A DNA stretch of 64,000 bases from Acidobacteriota bacterium (lineage in GTDB: Bacteria; Acidobacteriota; Thermoanaerobaculia; UBA5066; Gp7-AA6), in contig JAIVJS010000026.1 of assembly GCA_020199905.1 (NCBI GenBank), positions 1-64,000 of the forward strand. The letters are read 5' to 3'. Within the stretch, counting starts at the first letter, position 1. Each line of letters starts with the position of its first letter. Below the pieces are notes generated by a model. It ran no database searches. It was not told the DNA's origin and was given only the letters and a program-made list of their open reading frames with translations. The position numbers were made by a program, and so were the translations under genes. This document shows, piece after piece, positions 52,977-64,000 of the stretch.

Positions 52977-53362
<386 letters not shown>

Positions 53363-53374: not shown

Positions 53375-53695
53375 GTGCCGGAAAGACAACGCCGACTCCG
53401 TAAGAAGCGGCGGTTTCTCGTTGAATTCGAAGCGGCCGGGGTCAAGCACACCGGCTTTACGCACGACGTGTCGCCCTCCGGCCTCTTCGTTTGCTCCATC
53501 CGGGCCCCGAAGCCGGGAACCGCTCTTTCCATGACCCTCCGCTCATCGAAAGACACAGACGTTGGTCTCCGGGGCGTTGTCGTGAGGTCCTTTCGTGGAC
53601 CACCTGCTCTGGCAGCTCTCATGCCGAGTGGCTTCGGAGTCCGGTTCTCCGAGACTCCTCCCGAGGATTACTTTCGGCTCCTGGCAACACTCTGA
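53375..53695 (+). CDS. Single-domain PilZ protein
   Basis: This 106-residue protein consists of one PilZ domain, which usually binds cyclic di-GMP. The arginine-rich switch RLRKKRR (residues 7-13) and the D31-x-S33-x-x-G36 motif (DVSPSG) are both present. Such small PilZ proteins act as second-messenger receptors on motility, secretion or enzymes. The GTG start is predicted to be at the very 5' end of the mRNA. A link to the PilT-like ATPase elsewhere in the window is possible but not shown. Confidence 0.88.
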   Translation: MPERQRRLRKKRRFLVEFEAAGVKHTGFTHDVSPSGLFVCSIRAPKPGTALSMTLRSSKDTDVGLRGVVVRSFRGPPALAALMPSGFGVRFSETPPEDYFRLLATL

Positions 53696-53858
53696 GGTTG
53701 GGCGGCCAGAGCCGGATCCTCCCGCCAGGGCGCTTCGAGCAACTCATGCCGCGGACGTGTCTGGATCGATGCCAACGCCGTCTCTGAGGCATCGCGACGC
53801 TTCGAACCGGACCACGCAGGTGCGGTCTCACCGGCTGGTGTACGCTGCGAACACTCGA

Positions 53859-55550
53859 ATGAACAACTTCGGCCCGCCTCGTCGGGTGCGCGCCCGCCCC
53901 GATCTCCCTCAGACTCCGACGTCTCTTCCGGTCCCGTCGCCGCGGGGGAGGAAGCTGCGGGTCGGCATCGTCGACATCGTCGAGCGGAGCCCCACGCGAG
54001 CCCTCTACGCGCGCGTCATGAACCCCAACCTCGCCAGCGTGATGCCCCAGGTGATCGGGGCGTGGTGTCGCGAGGATGGCCACGACGTGCGGTTCGTCTG
54101 TTACACGGGTTTCGAGGACCTGCTCAGAGAGCTGCCGACCGGCGCGGACATCGTGTTCCTCGGCGCCTTCACGGAAGCCGCGCACACTGCGTACGCCCTT
54201 TCCGCCCTCTTCCGGAAGCATGGCGCGGTCACGGTGCTCGGGGGTCCTCACGCGCGCTGCTACCCTGAAGATGCGCAGAAGTATTTCGACTACGTCCTCG
54301 GGTTCACCAACCGGGAGATCCTCCGCGACGTCCTGAAGGATTGCTCGCCCCACCGGCCGGCGGGACTGCACCTCGCGGCGGCCGCACAGCCGCTGGCGCT
54401 GCCCGGCGTTCAGGAACGCTGGCCCTTCATCGAGCCGACGCTGGCGAAGGCCCCTCTTATCAAGATGGTTCCGATGCTCGGAAGCCTGGGTTGTCCGTAC
54501 ACGTGCCGCTTCTGTATCGACTCCGAGGTGCCGTACCAGCCGCTCGAATTCGGCGTCCTCCGGGAGGACCTCCGCTTTCTCCGCACGAAATTCGAGCGGC
54601 CGCTCGTGGGCTGGCACGACCCGAATTTCGGCGTGCAGTTCGACCGCTATCTCGGGATGATCGAGGAGGCGGTGCCTCCGGGCAGCGTCGATTTCATCGC
54701 CGAGAGCAGCCTGTCACTCCTGTCCGAACCGCACCTGAAGCGCCTCGCGCGCAACGGCTTTCGGGCCCTGCTTCCGGGAGTCGAGTCCTGGTACGACCTC
54801 GGGAACAAGTCGAAGACGGGAGCGAACCAGGGAATGGAGAAAGTCCGCCAGGTGTCTGAGCACGTCAACCTGATCCTGCGGCACATCCCGTACGTCCAGG
54901 CGAACTTCGTGCTCGGGCTCGATTCGGACGAAGGCCCCGAGCCTTTTGAGCTCACGAAGCGGTTCGTCGACATGACTCCCGGCGCCTTCCCCGGATTCTC
55001 CCTCCTGACGGCGTTCGGGAGAGCGGCGCCGGTGAACCTCGAGTACCAGCGCGACGGGCGCGTGCTGCCGTTTCCTTTTCATTTCCTGAACAACAACCAG
55101 TCGATGAACGTGCGGCCCAACCATTACCTCTGGCCGGAGTTCTACGACCGCGTAATCGACTTGACGCGATACGCCTTCTCGAAGCGGGCCATCTGGAATC
55201 GCTTCCGCGGCACGTCGGGCGCCATCCCGCGCCTGATGAACGTCGTGCGGGCGGTGTCGACGGAGGGGTCCGGCCGGATCCGGTACCACACCGAGATCCG
55301 CCGCCGCCTCGAAGACGACCGCGAGTTCCGGCCTTTCTTCCAGCAGCGCGCGACAAAGCTGCCCGCCTTCTATTCCCGCATGGTGCGGCGGGATCTCGGG
55401 CCTTTGTGGCCGTGGCTTCCCGACGGCGCTCTCGAGCACGACCCGACGGCGTACTGGAAGTCGGTGTCGTCAGCCCGGGAGCCGGCGCGGGCGGCGCGCG
55501 TCCGACCACCCGCCGCCCCGCTGACGCCGCGACCCGCTCCCTCCGCCTGA
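53859..55550 (+). CDS. B12-binding-domain radical SAM protein
   Basis: This 563-residue protein has an N-terminal Rossmann-like region resembling a cobalamin-binding domain (about 35-150, with IVFLGAFTEAAHTAYALSA and VLGGPHARCYPED) and a radical SAM core whose iron-sulfur ligands are C212, C216 and C219 in GCPYTCRFC. The motif HDPNFGVQFDRYLGMIEE follows. Members methylate or rearrange unreactive carbons, or thiomethylate; the substrate is not clear. The ATG at 53859 was chosen; a GTG at 53838 is possible. No precursor peptide gene is seen beside it. Confidence 0.85.
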   Translation: MNNFGPPRRVRARPDLPQTPTSLPVPSPRGRKLRVGIVDIVERSPTRALYARVMNPNLASVMPQVIGAWCREDGHDVRFVCYTGFEDLLRELPTGADIVFLGAFTEAAHTAYALSALFRKHGAVTVLGGPHARCYPEDAQKYFDYVLGFTNREILRDVLKDCSPHRPAGLHLAAAAQPLALPGVQERWPFIEPTLAKAPLIKMVPMLGSLGCPYTCRFCIDSEVPYQPLEFGVLREDLRFLRTKFERPLVGWHDPNFGVQFDRYLGMIEEAVPPGSVDFIAESSLSLLSEPHLKRLARNGFRALLPGVESWYDLGNKSKTGANQGMEKVRQVSEHVNLILRHIPYVQANFVLGLDSDEGPEPFELTKRFVDMTPGAFPGFSLLTAFGRAAPVNLEYQRDGRVLPFPFHFLNNNQSMNVRPNHYLWPEFYDRVIDLTRYAFSKRAIWNRFRGTSGAIPRLMNVVRAVSTEGSGRIRYHTEIRRRLEDDREFRPFFQQRATKLPAFYSRMVRRDLGPLWPWLPDGALEHDPTAYWKSVSSAREPARAARVRPPAAPLTPRPAPSA

Positions 55551-56656: not shown

Positions 56657-57262
56657 ATGACGCATTCATCGGAAGCGCGCTCTCCGCGGGAGAGCGGCGA
56701 CCGCGTACGCTTCGAGAGCCACGGCAAGCTGATCGATACGCTCGGCGAAGTCCTCGCGAGCTCCGCCCGTGAGAGTTTCGAAGTCCGGATGACAGCGCGG
56801 CTCTGGCTCGAGAAGAACGGGGAAGCGGCCGCGCGGGCTCTCGCCTCGGCCTCGACGCGGCCCGAGCGACTCGAGGCCGATTGCGACTGCCGGCAGGAGC
56901 AGCCCCTGGCCGTCTGGGAGAACGACTTTCCGGGCCTTCCGATCCAGACTGGCGCGGGATCGCTGACGCCGCGCGAGATACGGGTTCTCCGCTCGAGCCC
57001 GGGGATCGCCGGCCGGCCGCGGCCACTCGCGAGGATCGCGCCCGAGCTCGGGTTGAGGCGCGAGCGCGTGCGGCAAATCGAGTCGGGAGCCCCGCAGCGA
57101 CTCGGCATCCGGCTTCCGAAGGGCATGCACCGCCGCTCCGGGGGACGGTGGAAGCGCGCGAGGATCGTGTTGCGGAAGCTCGCCTCTCTGCGCTCGCCGT
57201 TCCCGGGAACGACGGACACAATCGGCGTCTCGGGTTCGGATCCGCTCGAGGTGCGGCCTTGA
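56657..57262 (+). CDS. Small protein with a sigma-70 region 4-like domain
   Basis: This 201-residue protein has a segment LTPREIRVLRSSPGIAGRPR then LARIAPELGLRRERVRQIES (about residues 103-142), which matches the pattern of sigma-70 region 4, including the recognition helix ERVRQIE. Regions 2 and 3 are absent; the first 90 residues contain a predicted helical part with no known match, and a CDC motif. GGGAGAAG precedes the ATG. The stop overlaps the TTG of the TonB receptor gene (TTGA). It may be a partial sigma factor, an anti-sigma mimic or a decaying gene. Confidence 0.62.
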   Translation: MTHSSEARSPRESGDRVRFESHGKLIDTLGEVLASSARESFEVRMTARLWLEKNGEAAARALASASTRPERLEADCDCRQEQPLAVWENDFPGLPIQTGAGSLTPREIRVLRSSPGIAGRPRPLARIAPELGLRRERVRQIESGAPQRLGIRLPKGMHRRSGGRWKRARIVLRKLASLRSPFPGTTDTIGVSGSDPLEVRP

Positions 57263-59412
57263 GCTCGCCGAAAGGAAGCCAGCTGCTGCCGCGAATTCTG
57301 GTGGCGCTTCTGGCGCTCGCGCCGACGTCGGCCCCGCTGCTGGGACAGGCGGCGCCTCCGGCGGGTTCTGCGGGTGCGCCGGCGACCCGCGAAGACGTGG
57401 TCGTCTCGGCCACGCGACTCCCGGAAGCCGAGACGGAAATTCCCGGCCAGGCGACGGTGATCACGGGCGAACAGCTCCGAAGGGAAAACGTCAAGACTCT
57501 CGCGGAGGCGCTTCAGGACGTCGTCGGCGTGGACACCGGGCTCGGAAGCGACAACGGCGGACGGCTGCCCAACATAGGGATGCGGGGGTTGAAGGAGTTC
57601 GACGCCTTGCTCGTCATGGTGGACGGAATGCCCGCGGGCGGCGCTTTCAATCCGTCCCTGTCCCAGATCAACATCGAGGACGTCGATCGCATTGAAATCG
57701 TGAAGGGGCCGCAGGGAACTCTCTACGGCGTCTCGGCCTTCGCGGGAATGATCCAGGTGTTCACGCGGCCGGCGGCGCAGGGCAGCGACCTGCGCGCCGG
57801 GGGAGGTTCTTTCTCCGAAGGCCGGCTGCACCTTTCCCGCACGCAGGACCTCGGGATCGCGAAGCTTCGGCTGTTCGGAACCTTCGATCGCGCGAAAGGA
57901 TGGCAGCAACGGACGGACTACCGCGAAGATCGAGGCGGAGTGCGGCTCGACGTCCCCCTTTCGGGCGGAGGGGGGTTTTCCGGAATGGCCGACGTCTTCC
58001 GCACGACGCAGTTCTTTGGATCGCCTTTGCCGGTCGACGCGGGGGAGCCGCTGCCGGGGTTCCGGATCGACCGGAATTACGGGGTGGATGGAGGCCGTCT
58101 CGACCATCGGGTCTACTCCGTGAGAACCCGCGTGGCGAAGCCCCTCTCGAAGTCCCTCTCTTTGGAGAACGTATTCGGCGCAACCCGCGACGACCAGATC
58201 TCGGTCCGTTCGTTCGTGGGCGAGGTTGACGGGAACACCGCCGCGGCCGCGGGCGTCTCGTTGAAGCCTCACGAAACCGTTCTTTACGACGATCTGCACG
58301 TGACGGCCCTCTTCGATGCCGCCGGCCGGCACCGGCTGGTCGGGGGCGCCGCGATCACCTGGGGACGAACGACCGCGTCGGGAACGGGGTTCGACATCGA
58401 CCTCCAGATCGACCCCGTCGTCGTGCCGCGCTTCGCGGACACGCCCACGGGAGACAACCGGTCGTTCGTGGACCGCCGGACGTTCGTTGGCTTCTACGTG
58501 AACGACGAATGGACGCCGGTGCCGTTCCTCACGTTGACGGGAGGCGCGCGCTTCGACTCCGTTTCAGAGCGCCTCGTCGCGCAGAGTCAGGAGGTCGGAG
58601 CCCCGGAAGCGGACGTCACGCGGGATTCACGATCCGATGGGAAGTGGTCGGGGGGTGTGAGCGGCCTCGTGCGGCTCGTCTCCGATCGTCCCGGCGGCGT
58701 CAATTCCGTCCACTTCTACGTGGCGGCCAAGTCGGCGTTCAAGCCGGCGGCGCCCAACCTGACAGAGGCCGAGAACGCCCGCATCCTGGATCCGGAAAGA
58801 ACCCGGAGCGGCGAAGTCGGGCTCAAGACGCGGTGGTTCGACCGCCAGGTGTCCGTGGATCTCGCTCTCTTCCACATGATCTTCGAAAACATCGTGGTCT
58901 CGAATCTCGGCGCGGATGGAACGCCCGTGCTTCTCAACGCCGGATCGGAGAGGTTTCAGGGAGCGGAGATCGAAGTGGGATATCGGCCGGCCCCGCTTCC
59001 CGACCTGTCCTTCTCGGCCGGCTATGCCCACCACGATGCCCGATTCATACGGTTTTCGTTCCTGACGCCGGACGGTGAGCTGCGCGTGGTCGACGGGAAA
59101 CGGCTCGAGCTCGTTCCTCGCGACCTCTGGAACGCGAAGCTCTCCTGGGCGCCACGCACCGGCGCCGGGATCTTCGTGGCCGTTCGCCACCAGGGGCGTC
59201 GGCCGCTCAACCGCCGCAACGGGTTCTTCACGGACGCCTTCTATGAGACCGACGCCGGGGTGAGCTGGGATCTCGACCGGTTTCGGATCTCGGTCGTCGG
59301 CCGGAATCTCGGCGACAGCCGGCACTACACGTCGGAGAGCGAGATCGGCGACAGCCAGTTCTACGTCGCGGCCCCCCGCCGCTTCTTCGCGGAAGTTGCC
59401 CTGCGTTTCTGA
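57259..59412 (+). CDS. TonB-dependent outer-membrane receptor
   Basis: This 717-residue receptor starts with a TTG overlapping the upstream stop. A hydrophobic signal (ILVALLALAPTSAPLLGQA) is followed by a plug domain with REDVVVSATRLPEAETEIPG, VLITGEQL-like VITGEQLRRENVKTLAEAL, and RIEIVKGPQGTLYGVSAFAG. The barrel ends in FFAEVALRF with the terminal Phe. Unlike the first receptor it has no carboxypeptidase-regulatory domain. The neighbouring natural-product genes make a siderophore or vitamin substrate possible, but this is only context. Confidence 0.9.
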   Translation: MSSPKGSQLLPRILVALLALAPTSAPLLGQAAPPAGSAGAPATREDVVVSATRLPEAETEIPGQATVITGEQLRRENVKTLAEALQDVVGVDTGLGSDNGGRLPNIGMRGLKEFDALLVMVDGMPAGGAFNPSLSQINIEDVDRIEIVKGPQGTLYGVSAFAGMIQVFTRPAAQGSDLRAGGGSFSEGRLHLSRTQDLGIAKLRLFGTFDRAKGWQQRTDYREDRGGVRLDVPLSGGGGFSGMADVFRTTQFFGSPLPVDAGEPLPGFRIDRNYGVDGGRLDHRVYSVRTRVAKPLSKSLSLENVFGATRDDQISVRSFVGEVDGNTAAAAGVSLKPHETVLYDDLHVTALFDAAGRHRLVGGAAITWGRTTASGTGFDIDLQIDPVVVPRFADTPTGDNRSFVDRRTFVGFYVNDEWTPVPFLTLTGGARFDSVSERLVAQSQEVGAPEADVTRDSRSDGKWSGGVSGLVRLVSDRPGGVNSVHFYVAAKSAFKPAAPNLTEAENARILDPERTRSGEVGLKTRWFDRQVSVDLALFHMIFENIVVSNLGADGTPVLLNAGSERFQGAEIEVGYRPAPLPDLSFSAGYAHHDARFIRFSFLTPDGELRVVDGKRLELVPRDLWNAKLSWAPRTGAGIFVAVRHQGRRPLNRRNGFFTDAFYETDAGVSWDLDRFRISVVGRNLGDSRHYTSESEIGDSQFYVAAPRRFFAEVALRF

Positions 59413-59618: not shown

Positions 59619-61478
59619 ATGTGCGGGATCTGCGGCATCGTCAACGTCCGGGGGCCCGGTGAGATCGACGAGGGCGTTCTCGCGCAGATGACGGAGAGGC
59701 TGATTCACCGTGGGCCGGACAACGCGGGATTCTTCGTGGACGACCGCGTCGGTTTCGGTGTTCGGCGGTTGAGCATCATCGACCTCGCGTGCGGAAATCA
59801 GCCGATGTCCAACGAGGATGAGTCGATCCATCTGGTCTGCAACGGCGAGATCTTCAACTATCTGGACCTGCGAGACGATCTCGCAGGCCGCGGTCATCGA
59901 TTTCGCTCCCGGTCGGACGTCGAGGTCCTGGTGCATCTCTACGAAGACGTCGGGTCATCGCTTCTCAACATGCTGAACGGTCAGTTCGCGCTGGCGATCT
60001 TCGATCAACGGAAGCAGACCGTTCTGCTGGCGCGGGATCAGTTCGGCGTCATACCGCTCTTCTTCACGATCGTCGGAGACACGCTGCTGTTCGCGTCGGA
60101 AATCAAGTCCCTCCTCGTTCACCCGCTGGTGGATCGCAGGGTGGATCTGACCGGCCTCGACCAGGTACTCTCCCTTCCCGGTCTCGTCAGCCCGCGGACG
60201 ATGTTCCAGGGAATTAGAAGCCTTCCTCCCGGCCATCTCCTCGAGGTCCGCAATGGCGTGGTCAGGACCGCGGAATACTGGGATGTGCCGTATCCGAAAG
60301 AATCGGAGGCGATCTATCTCCGGTCGGAGAGCGAGGACCTGGCGGAGCTGGAGGAACGGCTGCTCTCCTCCGTCCGGCGCCGCCTTCAGGCCGACGTGCC
60401 CGCGGGAGCGTATCTGAGCGGCGGGCTCGACTCCTCTCTCGTCACGAGCATGATCCGAGCCGTGTCTCCTGAGGAGAAGACCACCTTCTCGGTCGTTTTC
60501 AACGACGCGTACTTCGCGGAGCGGGATTATCAGTCGGTCATGGTGGAGGAGCTGAAGTTCCCTCACCGGGAGATAGACTTCGGCGTCGCCGACGTCGCCG
60601 ACAGCCTCTCGAACGTCATCTGGCACTGCGAGTGTCCTTTGAAGGAAACCTACAACGCGGCGACGCACGCGCTGTCGGCCGCGGCGCAGTCGGAAGGCGT
60701 CCGGGTGGTCCTGACGGGGGAAGGCGCCGACGAGCTCTTCGCGGGGTACACGAGCTATCGGTTCGACGCGTTTCGACGGCAGCAGCAGGACGGCGGCGCC
60801 GGCGCCTCCGAAGAGACCATCCTGCGTGAGACTCTCTGGGGCGATCCCGGTTTTCATTACGAAGCGCATCAGTCCGCCCTCCGCGCCGTCAAGCGATCGC
60901 TCTTTTCGGAGCAGGTTGCCGCCCGCTACGCCGACTTCGACTTCATCCGATTCGGAGTCGTCGACCCCGGCAAGATCGCCGGACTTCATCCCATTCACAA
61001 ACGGTCGTACGTAGACTTGAAGGTCCGGCTCGCCGACCATCTCCTCGGCGACGCCGGAGATCGAATGCTCCTGGCGCACTCCGTCGAGGGGCGCTTTCCG
61101 TTTCTGGATCTCGGAGTGCTGGATTCGGTCGCGAGGATGCCCCCGGACCTGAAGCTTCGCGGATTCCAGGAGAAATACGCCCTGCGCCAGATCGCCTCGC
61201 GGTACCTTCCCCCGGTGATTGCGCAGCGGGAAAAATTTCCCTTCGCCTCGCCCGGAAGCCCTCAGCTTCTGCGGCTGAAAACCGAATGGGTGGAAGACCT
61301 TCTGTCGAATGACACCATCGCCCGGCAGGGCTATTTCAACGCCGCGGAGGTCGGCCGGTTGCGAAAGCAGTACGCGGATCCCGACTTCATGCTCAATATT
61401 CCCTATGAGACGGACTTGCTGCTGATCGTCCTGACGTTCGGGCTCTTTCTCCGGCTTTTCGAGATGCCGAGCCTGTGA
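59619..61478 (+). CDS. asnB: Asparagine synthase (glutamine-hydrolysing)
   Basis: This 619-residue class II amidotransferase has Cys2 as N-terminal nucleophile (MCGICGIV), LIHRGPDNAGFF and NGEIFNYLDLRD in the glutaminase half, and the PP-loop SGGLDSS near residue 267 plus LTGEGADELFAGYTSYRF in the synthetase half. It forms amides from carboxylates, normally Asp to Asn. The multidomain adenylation gene starts 46 nt downstream, so it may instead serve in natural-product amidation. The upstream 206-nt gap is very GC rich with no clear promoter. Confidence 0.94.
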   Translation: MCGICGIVNVRGPGEIDEGVLAQMTERLIHRGPDNAGFFVDDRVGFGVRRLSIIDLACGNQPMSNEDESIHLVCNGEIFNYLDLRDDLAGRGHRFRSRSDVEVLVHLYEDVGSSLLNMLNGQFALAIFDQRKQTVLLARDQFGVIPLFFTIVGDTLLFASEIKSLLVHPLVDRRVDLTGLDQVLSLPGLVSPRTMFQGIRSLPPGHLLEVRNGVVRTAEYWDVPYPKESEAIYLRSESEDLAELEERLLSSVRRRLQADVPAGAYLSGGLDSSLVTSMIRAVSPEEKTTFSVVFNDAYFAERDYQSVMVEELKFPHREIDFGVADVADSLSNVIWHCECPLKETYNAATHALSAAAQSEGVRVVLTGEGADELFAGYTSYRFDAFRRQQQDGGAGASEETILRETLWGDPGFHYEAHQSALRAVKRSLFSEQVAARYADFDFIRFGVVDPGKIAGLHPIHKRSYVDLKVRLADHLLGDAGDRMLLAHSVEGRFPFLDLGVLDSVARMPPDLKLRGFQEKYALRQIASRYLPPVIAQREKFPFASPGSPQLLRLKTEWVEDLLSNDTIARQGYFNAAEVGRLRKQYADPDFMLNIPYETDLLLIVLTFGLFLRLFEMPSL

Positions 61479-61524
61479 GGACCCCGCCGCGGGGCCCCTT
61501 CGGCGCTCCGGAGAGGAATGTGAA

Positions 61525-64000
61525 GTGACAGACTCGACGCCTGTTTCCTCGAGTGCTCTGAACCATCCGGTCTCGCTGACTCTGACGGACCTGCTCGAGC
61601 GGCGGGCTGGCTCGCGCCCCGAGGCGATCGCGCTGGCGGCCCCGGGGCGCAAGCCCGCGACGTACGGGGACCTCGCCGCCTCCGTGGCGGCGATCGCCGG
61701 GCGGTTGAAGGAGGCCGGGGTCCGTCGGACCGATCGCGTCGCGGTCGTGATACCGAACGGCCCGGAAATGGCGGCGTCATTCCTCGGCGTCTCGGTCGCC
61801 GCCATTTGCGCGCCCTTGAATCCCGCATACCGGCAGCCGGAGTTCGATTTCTTTCTCGACGATCTCGGCGCCCGGGCGTTGATTCTCCCCGAGGGCGTCG
61901 ATTCTCCCGCACGGCCCGCCGCGCTCGCCCGGGGCATTCCGATTCTCGAGATCTCGCCCGAGCTCGATGCCCCGGCGGGGCGGGTCCGTTTTGCCGGTCC
62001 GGCGCAGGGCGCCTCCGGCGGTGGCGGGGTATCCGCGCGTCCCGAGGATCCCGCTCTCGTGCTTTACACGTCGGGCATGACGTCGCGGCCGAAGGCGGTT
62101 CTTCTCTCGCAAAGGGAGCTCTGCACGGCGGCCCACAACATCGCCGTCGCGCTCGAGATCCGTCCCGAGGACCGTTGCATCAACGTGATGCCTCTCTTCC
62201 ACGCTCACGGGCTGATCATCGCCACACTCTCGTCCCTGACGGCCGGAGCCTCGGTCGTCAGTACGCCCGGTCTTCGGATCCCTGAGTTCTTCGATTGGGT
62301 GAGGACCTTCCAGCCCACCTGGTACACGGCCGCTCCGACGATCCACCAGGCCATCGTCGAGAACGCCGGGGCGCACCGCGGCGCGCCGCAGGACCGCCTC
62401 CTGCGCTTCATCCGGTCATCCGCCGCTTTTCTTCCGCCGTCCGTCAAGACGGGACTGGAGCAGGAGTTCGGATGTCCGGTCATCGAGGCGTATGGCATGA
62501 CCGAGTGCGTTCAAATCACCTCGAACCCGCTCCCGCCCGGCCGCGGCCGCGCGGGGTCGGTCGGTGTCCCCGCCGGCCCTGCCGTCGCGATCATGAACGA
62601 GTCGGGCGAGAAGCTTCCCGCGGGCGAGGCCGGCGAAATCGTGATCCAGGGCCTTCCCGTCATGCAGGGGTACGACCGGAACCCCGCCGCCAACGAGGCG
62701 TCCTTTACGCGGGGATGGTTCCGAACCGGAGACCAGGGCGTCCTCTCCGAGGATGGATTTCTTTCGTTGACAGGCCGGCTGAAAGAGATCATCAACTGCG
62801 GCGGCGAAAAGCTCTCGCCTTTCGAGGTGGATGAGGCCCTCATGGGACATCCCGCGGTACTGCAGGCGGTCGCCTTCGCAGTGCCGCACCCGACCCTCGG
62901 CGAAGACGTTGCGGCCGCGGTCGTCCTCCGGCCGGGCGCCTCGGCGTCGGAGGCGGAGCTTCGGCGGTTCGCGGCCGCCCGGCTCGCCGAGTACAAGGTC
63001 CCGCGCCAGATTCTCATCCGCGAAGAAATCCCGAAGGGGCCCACGGGAAAGCTGCGTCGGATCGGCCTCGCGCAGGCTCTCGGCCTCGCGCCCCCCGAAA
63101 GCGGAGAAAGCCCGGCGGAGGAAAAGCGCCCGGCGGAGGAGACGGTTTCGGTCGAGGCGCCGCTGGCGAGGATCTGGTGCGATCTTCTCAAGATCGAGCA
63201 TGCGGAGCCGGACGGAAACTTTTTCCGACTGGGCGGCGATTCGATCCGGGCTTCCCTCCTCGTGGCTCGCGTCCGGAAGGACCTCCGCGTGGAGCTTCCG
63301 CTGCGCGCGCTCTTCGATACGCCGACGTTCGCGGAGGTCTGCGCGGCGGTGGAACGCGGCCGGGGAAAATCGCCGGTCCGCGGGCCCATCGCCCGCCGCT
63401 CTCAGCCGGCTCCCTCGCCGGAGCCGCTCGCGTCTCCCCGCGTGGAGCGCGCCGCACCGCCCGAGGCTCCGGCGCGCGCGGCGGCCTCGAAAACGCCGGG
63501 GCCACGCGGTCCCGACTCGCCCCTTCAGTTCAGCCTGTTTTTCTTTTCAGCCGACGGATCCGCGGACTCGCCGGAAAAGTACCGGCTGGTGCTGGAGGCG
63601 TCGCGGTTCGCCGATCAGCACGGGTACGCGGCGGTCTGGACCCCCGAGCGGCACTTCCACTCGTTCGGCGGCCTGTATCCGAACCCGGCCGTGGTCGGGG
63701 CGGCAATCGCCGCGGTGACCAGCCGGATCCAGATTCGCGCGGCGAGCGTCGTCTTGCCCCTCCAGGACCCGATTCGGGTGGCCGAGGAGTGGTCGGTCGT
63801 CGATAACCTGAGCGGCGGGAGGGCGGGAGTCTCGTTCGCGTCGGGCTGGCACGTCAACGATTTCGCGCTCTCTCCCTCGACGTTTGGTGACCGCCGGAAC
63901 GTCATGTTCGAGCGAATCGGGATCGTCCGAGAGCTGTGGGCCGGCCGGCCGATCACGCTCCCGAACGGCGCGGGAAACCCGATCGAGGTGATGACCTACC
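61525..64000 (+). CDS. Adenylation / carrier / luciferase-like monooxygenase protein, partial
   Basis: The gene runs off the window after 825 codons. Residues about 15-520 form an AMP-binding enzyme: VLYTSGMTSRPKAVLLS (A3), YGMTECVQ (A5), GWFRTGD (A7), GRLKEIINCGGEKLSPFEV (A8) and PKGPTGKLRR with the A10 Lys. A carrier domain follows with FFRLGGDSIRAS; S573 would carry phosphopantetheine. From about residue 667 a flavin-dependent luciferase-like monooxygenase begins (LQFSLFFFSADGSADS, AAVWTPERHFHSFGGLYPNP). This layout is known from NRPS/PKS assembly lines. The GTG at 61525 has GGAGAGGA 7 nt upstream. Confidence 0.92.
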   Translation, partial: MTDSTPVSSSALNHPVSLTLTDLLERRAGSRPEAIALAAPGRKPATYGDLAASVAAIAGRLKEAGVRRTDRVAVVIPNGPEMAASFLGVSVAAICAPLNPAYRQPEFDFFLDDLGARALILPEGVDSPARPAALARGIPILEISPELDAPAGRVRFAGPAQGASGGGGVSARPEDPALVLYTSGMTSRPKAVLLSQRELCTAAHNIAVALEIRPEDRCINVMPLFHAHGLIIATLSSLTAGASVVSTPGLRIPEFFDWVRTFQPTWYTAAPTIHQAIVENAGAHRGAPQDRLLRFIRSSAAFLPPSVKTGLEQEFGCPVIEAYGMTECVQITSNPLPPGRGRAGSVGVPAGPAVAIMNESGEKLPAGEAGEIVIQGLPVMQGYDRNPAANEASFTRGWFRTGDQGVLSEDGFLSLTGRLKEIINCGGEKLSPFEVDEALMGHPAVLQAVAFAVPHPTLGEDVAAAVVLRPGASASEAELRRFAAARLAEYKVPRQILIREEIPKGPTGKLRRIGLAQALGLAPPESGESPAEEKRPAEETVSVEAPLARIWCDLLKIEHAEPDGNFFRLGGDSIRASLLVARVRKDLRVELPLRALFDTPTFAEVCAAVERGRGKSPVRGPIARRSQPAPSPEPLASPRVERAAPPEAPARAAASKTPGPRGPDSPLQFSLFFFSADGSADSPEKYRLVLEASRFADQHGYAAVWTPERHFHSFGGLYPNPAVVGAAIAAVTSRIQIRAASVVLPLQDPIRVAEEWSVVDNLSGGRAGVSFASGWHVNDFALSPSTFGDRRNVMFERIGIVRELWAGRPITLPNGAGNPIEVMTY

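Follow-up and report, generated by a model that had tools for sequence, protein, structure and literature searches.

Luciferase-like monooxygenases (LLMs) of the MupA/OocM/PuwE type (TIGR04020), for which a carrier-bound substrate is expected, are best known from MupA, which works inside a polyketide line and hydroxylates the α carbon of an ACP-bound β-keto thioester; neither the β-hydroxy form nor acetoacetyl-ACP was turned over (PMC10952193). The 2-hydroxy group of puwainaphycin has been assigned to its monooxygenase (PMC4219810); α-hydroxylation has been proposed for the palmerolide LLM, and a link of other LLMs to Baeyer-Villiger-type chain shortening has been cited (PMC8739492). LLMs of the MupA/OocM/PuwE type are tied to ketosynthase modules. 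In a second group, the LLM is embedded in the adenylation (A) domain of NRPS modules and splits it; we take myxothiazol MtaG to be an example.

AsnB homologues have been proposed to amidate dicarboxylic thioesters both in glutarimide pathways (PMC7756379), where an acyltransferase loads malonate for the PKS and the malonamyl starter set comprises an AsnB homologue and a carrier, and in the actinonin and matlystatin pathways (PMC5719088), whose warhead genes (MatA/MatC) couple AsnB-like amidation to oxygenation of a succinate-type unit; deletion of matC abolished matlystatin formation. The stand-alone fatty-acid-amide systems of the OaaA/OaaACP/OaaC type combine one carrier with a free condensation (C) domain, whose motif is mostly (D/H)HxxxDS or -DA, with glycine in 17% (PMC13142362).

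The locus described here lies at the end of a window of 64,000 nucleotides that starts at base 1 of contig C103 (77526 bases) in a 3.9 Mb genome of 115 contigs (G000); the remainder of the contig was also read. A-T-LLM denotes the order adenylation, carrier, luciferase-like monooxygenase. The features are:

52977..53053, plus strand: tRNA-Pro (cgg), predicted by ARAGORN, left border of the lineage-specific stretch
56881..59412, plus strand: TonB-dependent receptor, open frame (barrel, PF00593, 105.5 bits; plug, PF07715, 82.8 bits)
59619..61478, plus strand: asnB, AsnB-type glutamine-dependent amidotransferase, 619 aa (TIGR01536, PF00733, GATase_7)
61525..64000 in the window and to 64587 on the contig, plus strand: A-T-LLM protein, 1020 aa, GTG start (AMP-binding, AMP-binding_C, PP-binding, Bac_luciferase)
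64604-65890, past the window end on C103, plus strand: class III CoA-transferase (PF02515, 421 bits, cut-off 23.3)
65907-67448, likewise past the window end on C103, plus strand: stand-alone condensation domain (PF00668, 359.3 bits)

The initial annotation had placed asnB directly before a chain containing an AMP-binding domain, a carrier with LGGDS and a luciferase-like monooxygenase. This observation is confirmed, with domain scores far beyond chance: the two genes are 46 nt apart, the LGGDS motif is present, and the four domains follow in the claimed order (AMP-binding, residues 24-383; AMP-binding_C, 434-509; PP-binding, 547-609; Bac_luciferase, 671-980). The frame starting at 61525 is cut by the window end and is complete on the contig. 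All four frames of the run, from asnB to the C domain, are open and on the plus strand, separated by 46, 16 and 16 nt, from which we infer that they are transcribed jointly. The run ends at 67448, so that only 3.4 kb of it (64001-67448) lies past the window, contrary to the earlier expectation that most of the cluster would be found there. The further modules anticipated downstream amount to the CoA-transferase and one free-standing C domain, after which come genes of other kinds: a Pro/Thr-rich frame on the minus strand that matched nothing in Pfam, two more matchless frames, a DsbD-like (PRK00293, 298.7 bits, cut-off 330) and a thioredoxin-like gene, and nuo-like genes, the nuo label having been assigned from sequence by reading. 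With the contig read to its end, a large NRPS/PKS cluster past the window was ruled out. Domain profiles revealed no ketosynthase in the run, and in terms of Pfam domains the run holds a single carrier and no release domain. The proposal of a natural-product locus thereby survives as a biosynthetic run with carrier-tied oxidation and an amidating-type enzyme directly in front, and loses its large assembly line.

We tentatively interpret asnB, the A-T-LLM gene, the CoA-transferase and the C domain as a short one-carrier natural-product pathway that would load, α-hydroxylate, amidate and hand over a single unit, and we give this reading somewhat less than an even chance. It builds on the observed gene content, order, domain families, cluster end and place, with all substrates and the order of reactions presumed. 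The A domain, or another loading route if it is impaired, would convert a small acid, short and probably dicarboxylic, into a carrier thioester. Using reduced FMN and O2, the LLM fused behind the carrier would then hydroxylate the carbon α to that thioester, and amidation of a free carboxylate of the carrier-bound unit would fall to AsnB, in line with proposals for malonamyl starter units. The CoA-transferase may activate or salvage the acid, which is most likely dicarboxylic and short, and the stand-alone C domain would transfer the unit to an amine that most likely sits on a carrier of another synthetase. Domain order, tight spacing, the TIGR04020 membership of the LLM, its match to PuwE and a neighbourhood difference of ~14 kb from a relative of the same family (G002) speak for this reading. 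Against it stand the lack of a ketosynthase in the run, whereas MupA requires a β-keto substrate, the altered residues of the A domain, the weak support in the LLM tree, the Baeyer-Villiger-type chemistry cited for the LLM family, an AsnB that passes a general model only, and a CoA-transferase below all named-family cut-offs.

The LLM covers the whole Bac_luciferase profile (170.4 bits) and belongs to the MupA/Atu3671 family, with 448.9 bits against the TIGR04020 cut-off of 244.45; its best solved-structure match is PuwE (6ket, E 2.5e-104). It shares this family with enzymes tied to ketosynthase modules, whereas here it is fused behind an A-T pair and the ketosynthase or PKS context that would provide a β-keto thioester for MupA-type α-hydroxylation is not found in the run. 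As in the A-embedded NRPS enzymes, the LLM and an A domain occupy one protein; those LLMs split the A domain (8 of the 29 tree rows), whereas the window LLM comes after the carrier. A location inside the A domain was considered and rejected on the domain limits (A, 24-509; T, 547-609; LLM, 671-980). In the LLM tree (29 rows labelled from locus context, seven of them without a label), the fork that holds the window row contains seven rows linked to PKS, three without a label and none of the eight A-embedded ones; this separation is weak, as the fork has a support of 78/90 and the A-embedded group of 36/38. The best-studied family member needs its β-keto substrate within a polyketide line; a fused A-T-LLM protein with no ketosynthase in the run would permit a direct in vitro test of other substrates of the family.

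AsnB starts with MCGICG, carries LSGGLDS and scores 445 bits against the TIGR01536 cut-off of 267.1, which places it in the glutamine-hydrolysing asparagine synthase type. More specialized assignments were rejected, namely a lasso-peptide cyclase (NF033535, 224.7 bits, cut-off 525), an XrtA amidotransferase (TIGR03108, 394.5 bits, cut-off 816.9) and an N-acetylglutaminylglutamine (NAGGN) amidotransferase (TIGR03104, 337.2 bits, cut-off 570.1). Because only the general asparagine synthase model is passed, the protein may also be an ordinary asparagine synthase. The pairing of an AsnB homologue with a carrier recalls the glutarimide malonamyl starter sets, with an A domain, an LLM, a CoA-transferase and a free C domain here in place of the malonate-loading acyltransferase. 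Four more AsnB-like places occur in the same genome (C110, C74, C48 and C69), together with a short fragment on C34; those on C110 and C34 adjoin NRPS domains. The C34 fragment (L114 7886-8029) is a 48-aa asnB remnant that matches the C-terminal part of the window AsnB at 60% identity and stands directly before a single C-A-T module (L114 8440-11643).

The initial annotation had also raised an N-oxidized product. N-oxidation by the LLM is possible, the reaction demonstrated for MupA being on the α carbon. If AsnB made an amide and the LLM oxidized its nitrogen, the product would be a hydroxamic acid of the actinonin and matlystatin kind; joining an AsnB-like enzyme to an oxygenase that acts on a dicarboxylic unit is the very logic proposed for those pathways (PMC5719088), and the TonB receptor nearby would also suit such a product. 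The actinonin/matlystatin oxygenase, however, is AurF-like and not luciferase-like, neither an AurF-like oxygenase nor the ethylmalonyl-type genes of those pathways were matched at the window locus, and the MupA chemistry reported in PMC10952193 is on carbon, so we regard the hydroxamate route as very improbable. The receptor itself, which had been reported upstream, is real and ends 206 nt before asnB. It scores 147.5 bits over the full TIGR01783 siderophore-receptor model, below the cut-off of 223.5. Its plug domain begins at residue 185, and the true start is probably later than that of the open frame. Its membership in the cluster is uncertain, and the product uptake that the initial annotation suggested for it stays conjectural.

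The A domain belongs by overall sequence to the oxalyl-CoA synthetase family (AAE3, Pcs60), and among solved structures it is most similar to oxalyl-CoA synthetases (5ie0, E 2.9e-110; 6qjz, E 6.3e-110), ahead of malonyl-CoA synthetase (E 1.3e-57). It differs from this family in its attached carrier and LLM and in residues of the pocket and the ATP loop. In a tree of 38 loci and the window (from 46 loci, 8 were dropped, two for want of a hit, L013 and L014, and six as partial), it clusters with two ligases, one from Rhodobacteraceae bacterium SC52 and one from Methylobacterium bullatum, to which it is 51 and 54% identical; this grouping has a support of 99/95. Both of these directly adjoin a panE-like reductase gene (514.9 and 436 bits, cut-off 223), and a fumarylacetoacetate-hydrolase-like gene is adjacent to one and 4 kb from the other. 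In the presumed oxalate pocket, the window protein reads RSSAAF and TECV-QITSN, with an Ala and a shortened loop at the positions where its two nearest ligases have Ser and His; L078 and L079 retain both residues. We take these positions to be the oxalate contacts of AAE3. At position four of the ATP-loop motif, the window has Met and 37 of the 38 other rows have Thr (Ser in the remaining one), and Cys precedes GGEK where six of the seven other clade members have Arg. Loading by this domain may fail because of the ATP-loop Met, the Cys in place of Arg and the absent Ser and His, and the domain may be weak or dead.

The CoA-transferase is assigned to class III and falls below the cut-offs of every named family that it matched, the nearest being succinate-glutarate CoA-transferase (330.7 bits, cut-off 750); against CoA:oxalate CoA-transferase (PRK11430) it scores 277.3 bits with a cut-off of 522. 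Its loop, PKRLGNMHP, contains the GNxH of the acetyl-CoA:oxalate CoA-transferase YfdE, for which the published pattern is P-X-[RKQ]-[ILVM]-G-N-[RKQ]-H-P (PMC3720670), and has Met where this pattern has R, K or Q. Together, the family of the A domain, the nearest relatives of the CoA-transferase and the GNxH loop point to a short dicarboxylic acid. That acid could be oxalate itself: the A domain would take oxalate, AsnB would make an oxamyl unit, and the C domain would form an N-oxalyl or oxamyl amide, possibly a TonB-imported metal ligand. The oxalyl-CoA synthetases as nearest solved relatives (E 3e-110) and the GNxH loop fit this chemistry, as do the panE-like genes beside the closest ligases, PanE of Methylobacterium extorquens being an oxalyl-CoA reductase (PMC9485241). 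We nevertheless judge it quite unlikely, given the Ala and shortened loop in place of Ser and His and the Met in the CoA-transferase where the YfdE pattern asks for R, K or Q. Moreover, oxalate has no α hydrogen for the LLM and the pocket is altered; we therefore favour another short acid.

The C domain has the motif HHIVTDG, a type that fits carrier-bound acceptors (PMC13142362). Since it is typical of carrier-dependent acceptors, the acceptor carrier would be encoded elsewhere; in the same genome, contigs C6, C12, C34 and C96 carry A, T and C domains. Direct amidation of a free amine, with the A-T pair and the free C domain releasing the product as in the stand-alone fatty-acid-amide systems, would account for a run without a second carrier, and one carrier with a stand-alone C domain is what the OaaA/OaaACP/OaaC systems contain. 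HHIVTDG, a canonical motif, nevertheless does not conform to the (D/H)HxxxDS or -DA of most such C domains, a type that we rejected for this protein. AsnB, the LLM and the CoA-transferase are extra with respect to those systems. With glycine occurring in 17% of them (PMC13142362), we consider this route improbable.

The altered residues of the A domain also bear on whether the locus still has a joint product. It could be decaying or mosaic, with an A domain that no longer activates acids. The ATP-loop Met, seen in one of 39 rows, the Cys for Arg in the GGEK region and the lost pocket residues would be expected in that case, as would one carrier with no release domain found in the run, and the 48-aa asnB remnant by the C-A-T module on C34 shows that such gene sets decay in this genome. 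All four frames are open, however, the carrier, C-domain and AsnB motifs that were checked are retained, the LLM and the C domain score far above their cut-offs, and the GC content is as in the rest of the window; decay is accordingly an unlikely explanation in our estimation. Returning to the short one-carrier pathway, a stronger version of it would be a self-contained four-enzyme unit that builds an amidated, α-hydroxylated short dicarboxylic block on its own carrier (e.g., a 2-hydroxymalonamyl thioester), with a PKS-independent LLM, delivery in trans by the free C domain and an A domain recruited from oxalyl-CoA synthetase and re-tuned for carrier chemistry. We find this version rather unlikely; if the unit does work alone, it would offer a compact route to an amidated hydroxy acid, an unusual building block.

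LLMs at E 1e-50 or better were found in nine of 396 genomes of the phylum, that of the window included. Among the other eight, one splits an A domain (L074), four lie in polyketide-type frames (L073, L075, L076 and L077) and three stand at or close to frame ends in NRPS surroundings (L070, L071 and L072); none has A-T ahead of the LLM in one protein. On plasmids, 91 of 72,556 records match at E 1e-60 or better and 80 records hold an LLM at E 1e-50 or better, with at least 80% of the A-T-LLM protein covered in one place in none of the 72,556; on a Bradyrhizobium plasmid (L094), a KS-containing protein ends in a carrier with an LLM after it. A scan of genome contigs, which relies on short exact peptides, gave 41 loci, of which only L013 and L014 matched over the LLM (by BLAST for five, by the match table for the others); each of these two LLMs splits an A domain. 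A search of open-licence PMC returned no paper on this gene set. The enzymes are of known kinds, and their arrangement was not found elsewhere among the phylum genomes, plasmids, contig scan and literature covered. Plasmid pDK3 of Rhodococcus sp. DK176 (L105, 2851-12099) carries a free-standing MupA/Atu3671-type LLM with a SidA-like monooxygenase, a cupin, a class I tRNA-ligase-like protein, a lysine 2,3-aminomutase and separate A and carrier proteins as neighbours, a gene set reminiscent of hydrazine-forming pathways.

By comparison with G002, the locus is lineage-specific: the interval from tRNA-Pro to the conserved right flank measures 16.8 kb in the window genome (53053 to 69837) and 2.6 kb in G002 (577 to 3193 of L091), a difference of ~14 kb. 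The right flank is conserved in G001 as well; because the 20 kb fetched from that genome contain no tRNA-Pro, the left border is supported by G002 alone. GC content is 66.9% in 53054-67448 and 67.2% in the window overall. An island bounded by a tRNA-derived repeat was rejected, as the longest exact match to tRNA-Pro in 53054-72000 has only 12 bases, on the minus strand. The flanking DsbD-like gene scores 429.6 bits with the selenoprotein model TsoB (cut-off 805); its homologues in L088 (G008) and L089 (G007) each have one in-frame TGA, possibly encoding selenocysteine, for whose place a check found nothing. Within the lineage-specific stretch, 53595-55550 encodes a putative B12-binding/radical SAM-like protein with CPYTCRFC, both of whose Pfam scores (21.9 and 21.2 bits) are below the cut-offs. 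A PilZ-domain frame (53375-53695) and a frame with sigma-70 region 4 (56657-57262) are situated between tRNA-Pro and the TonB receptor.
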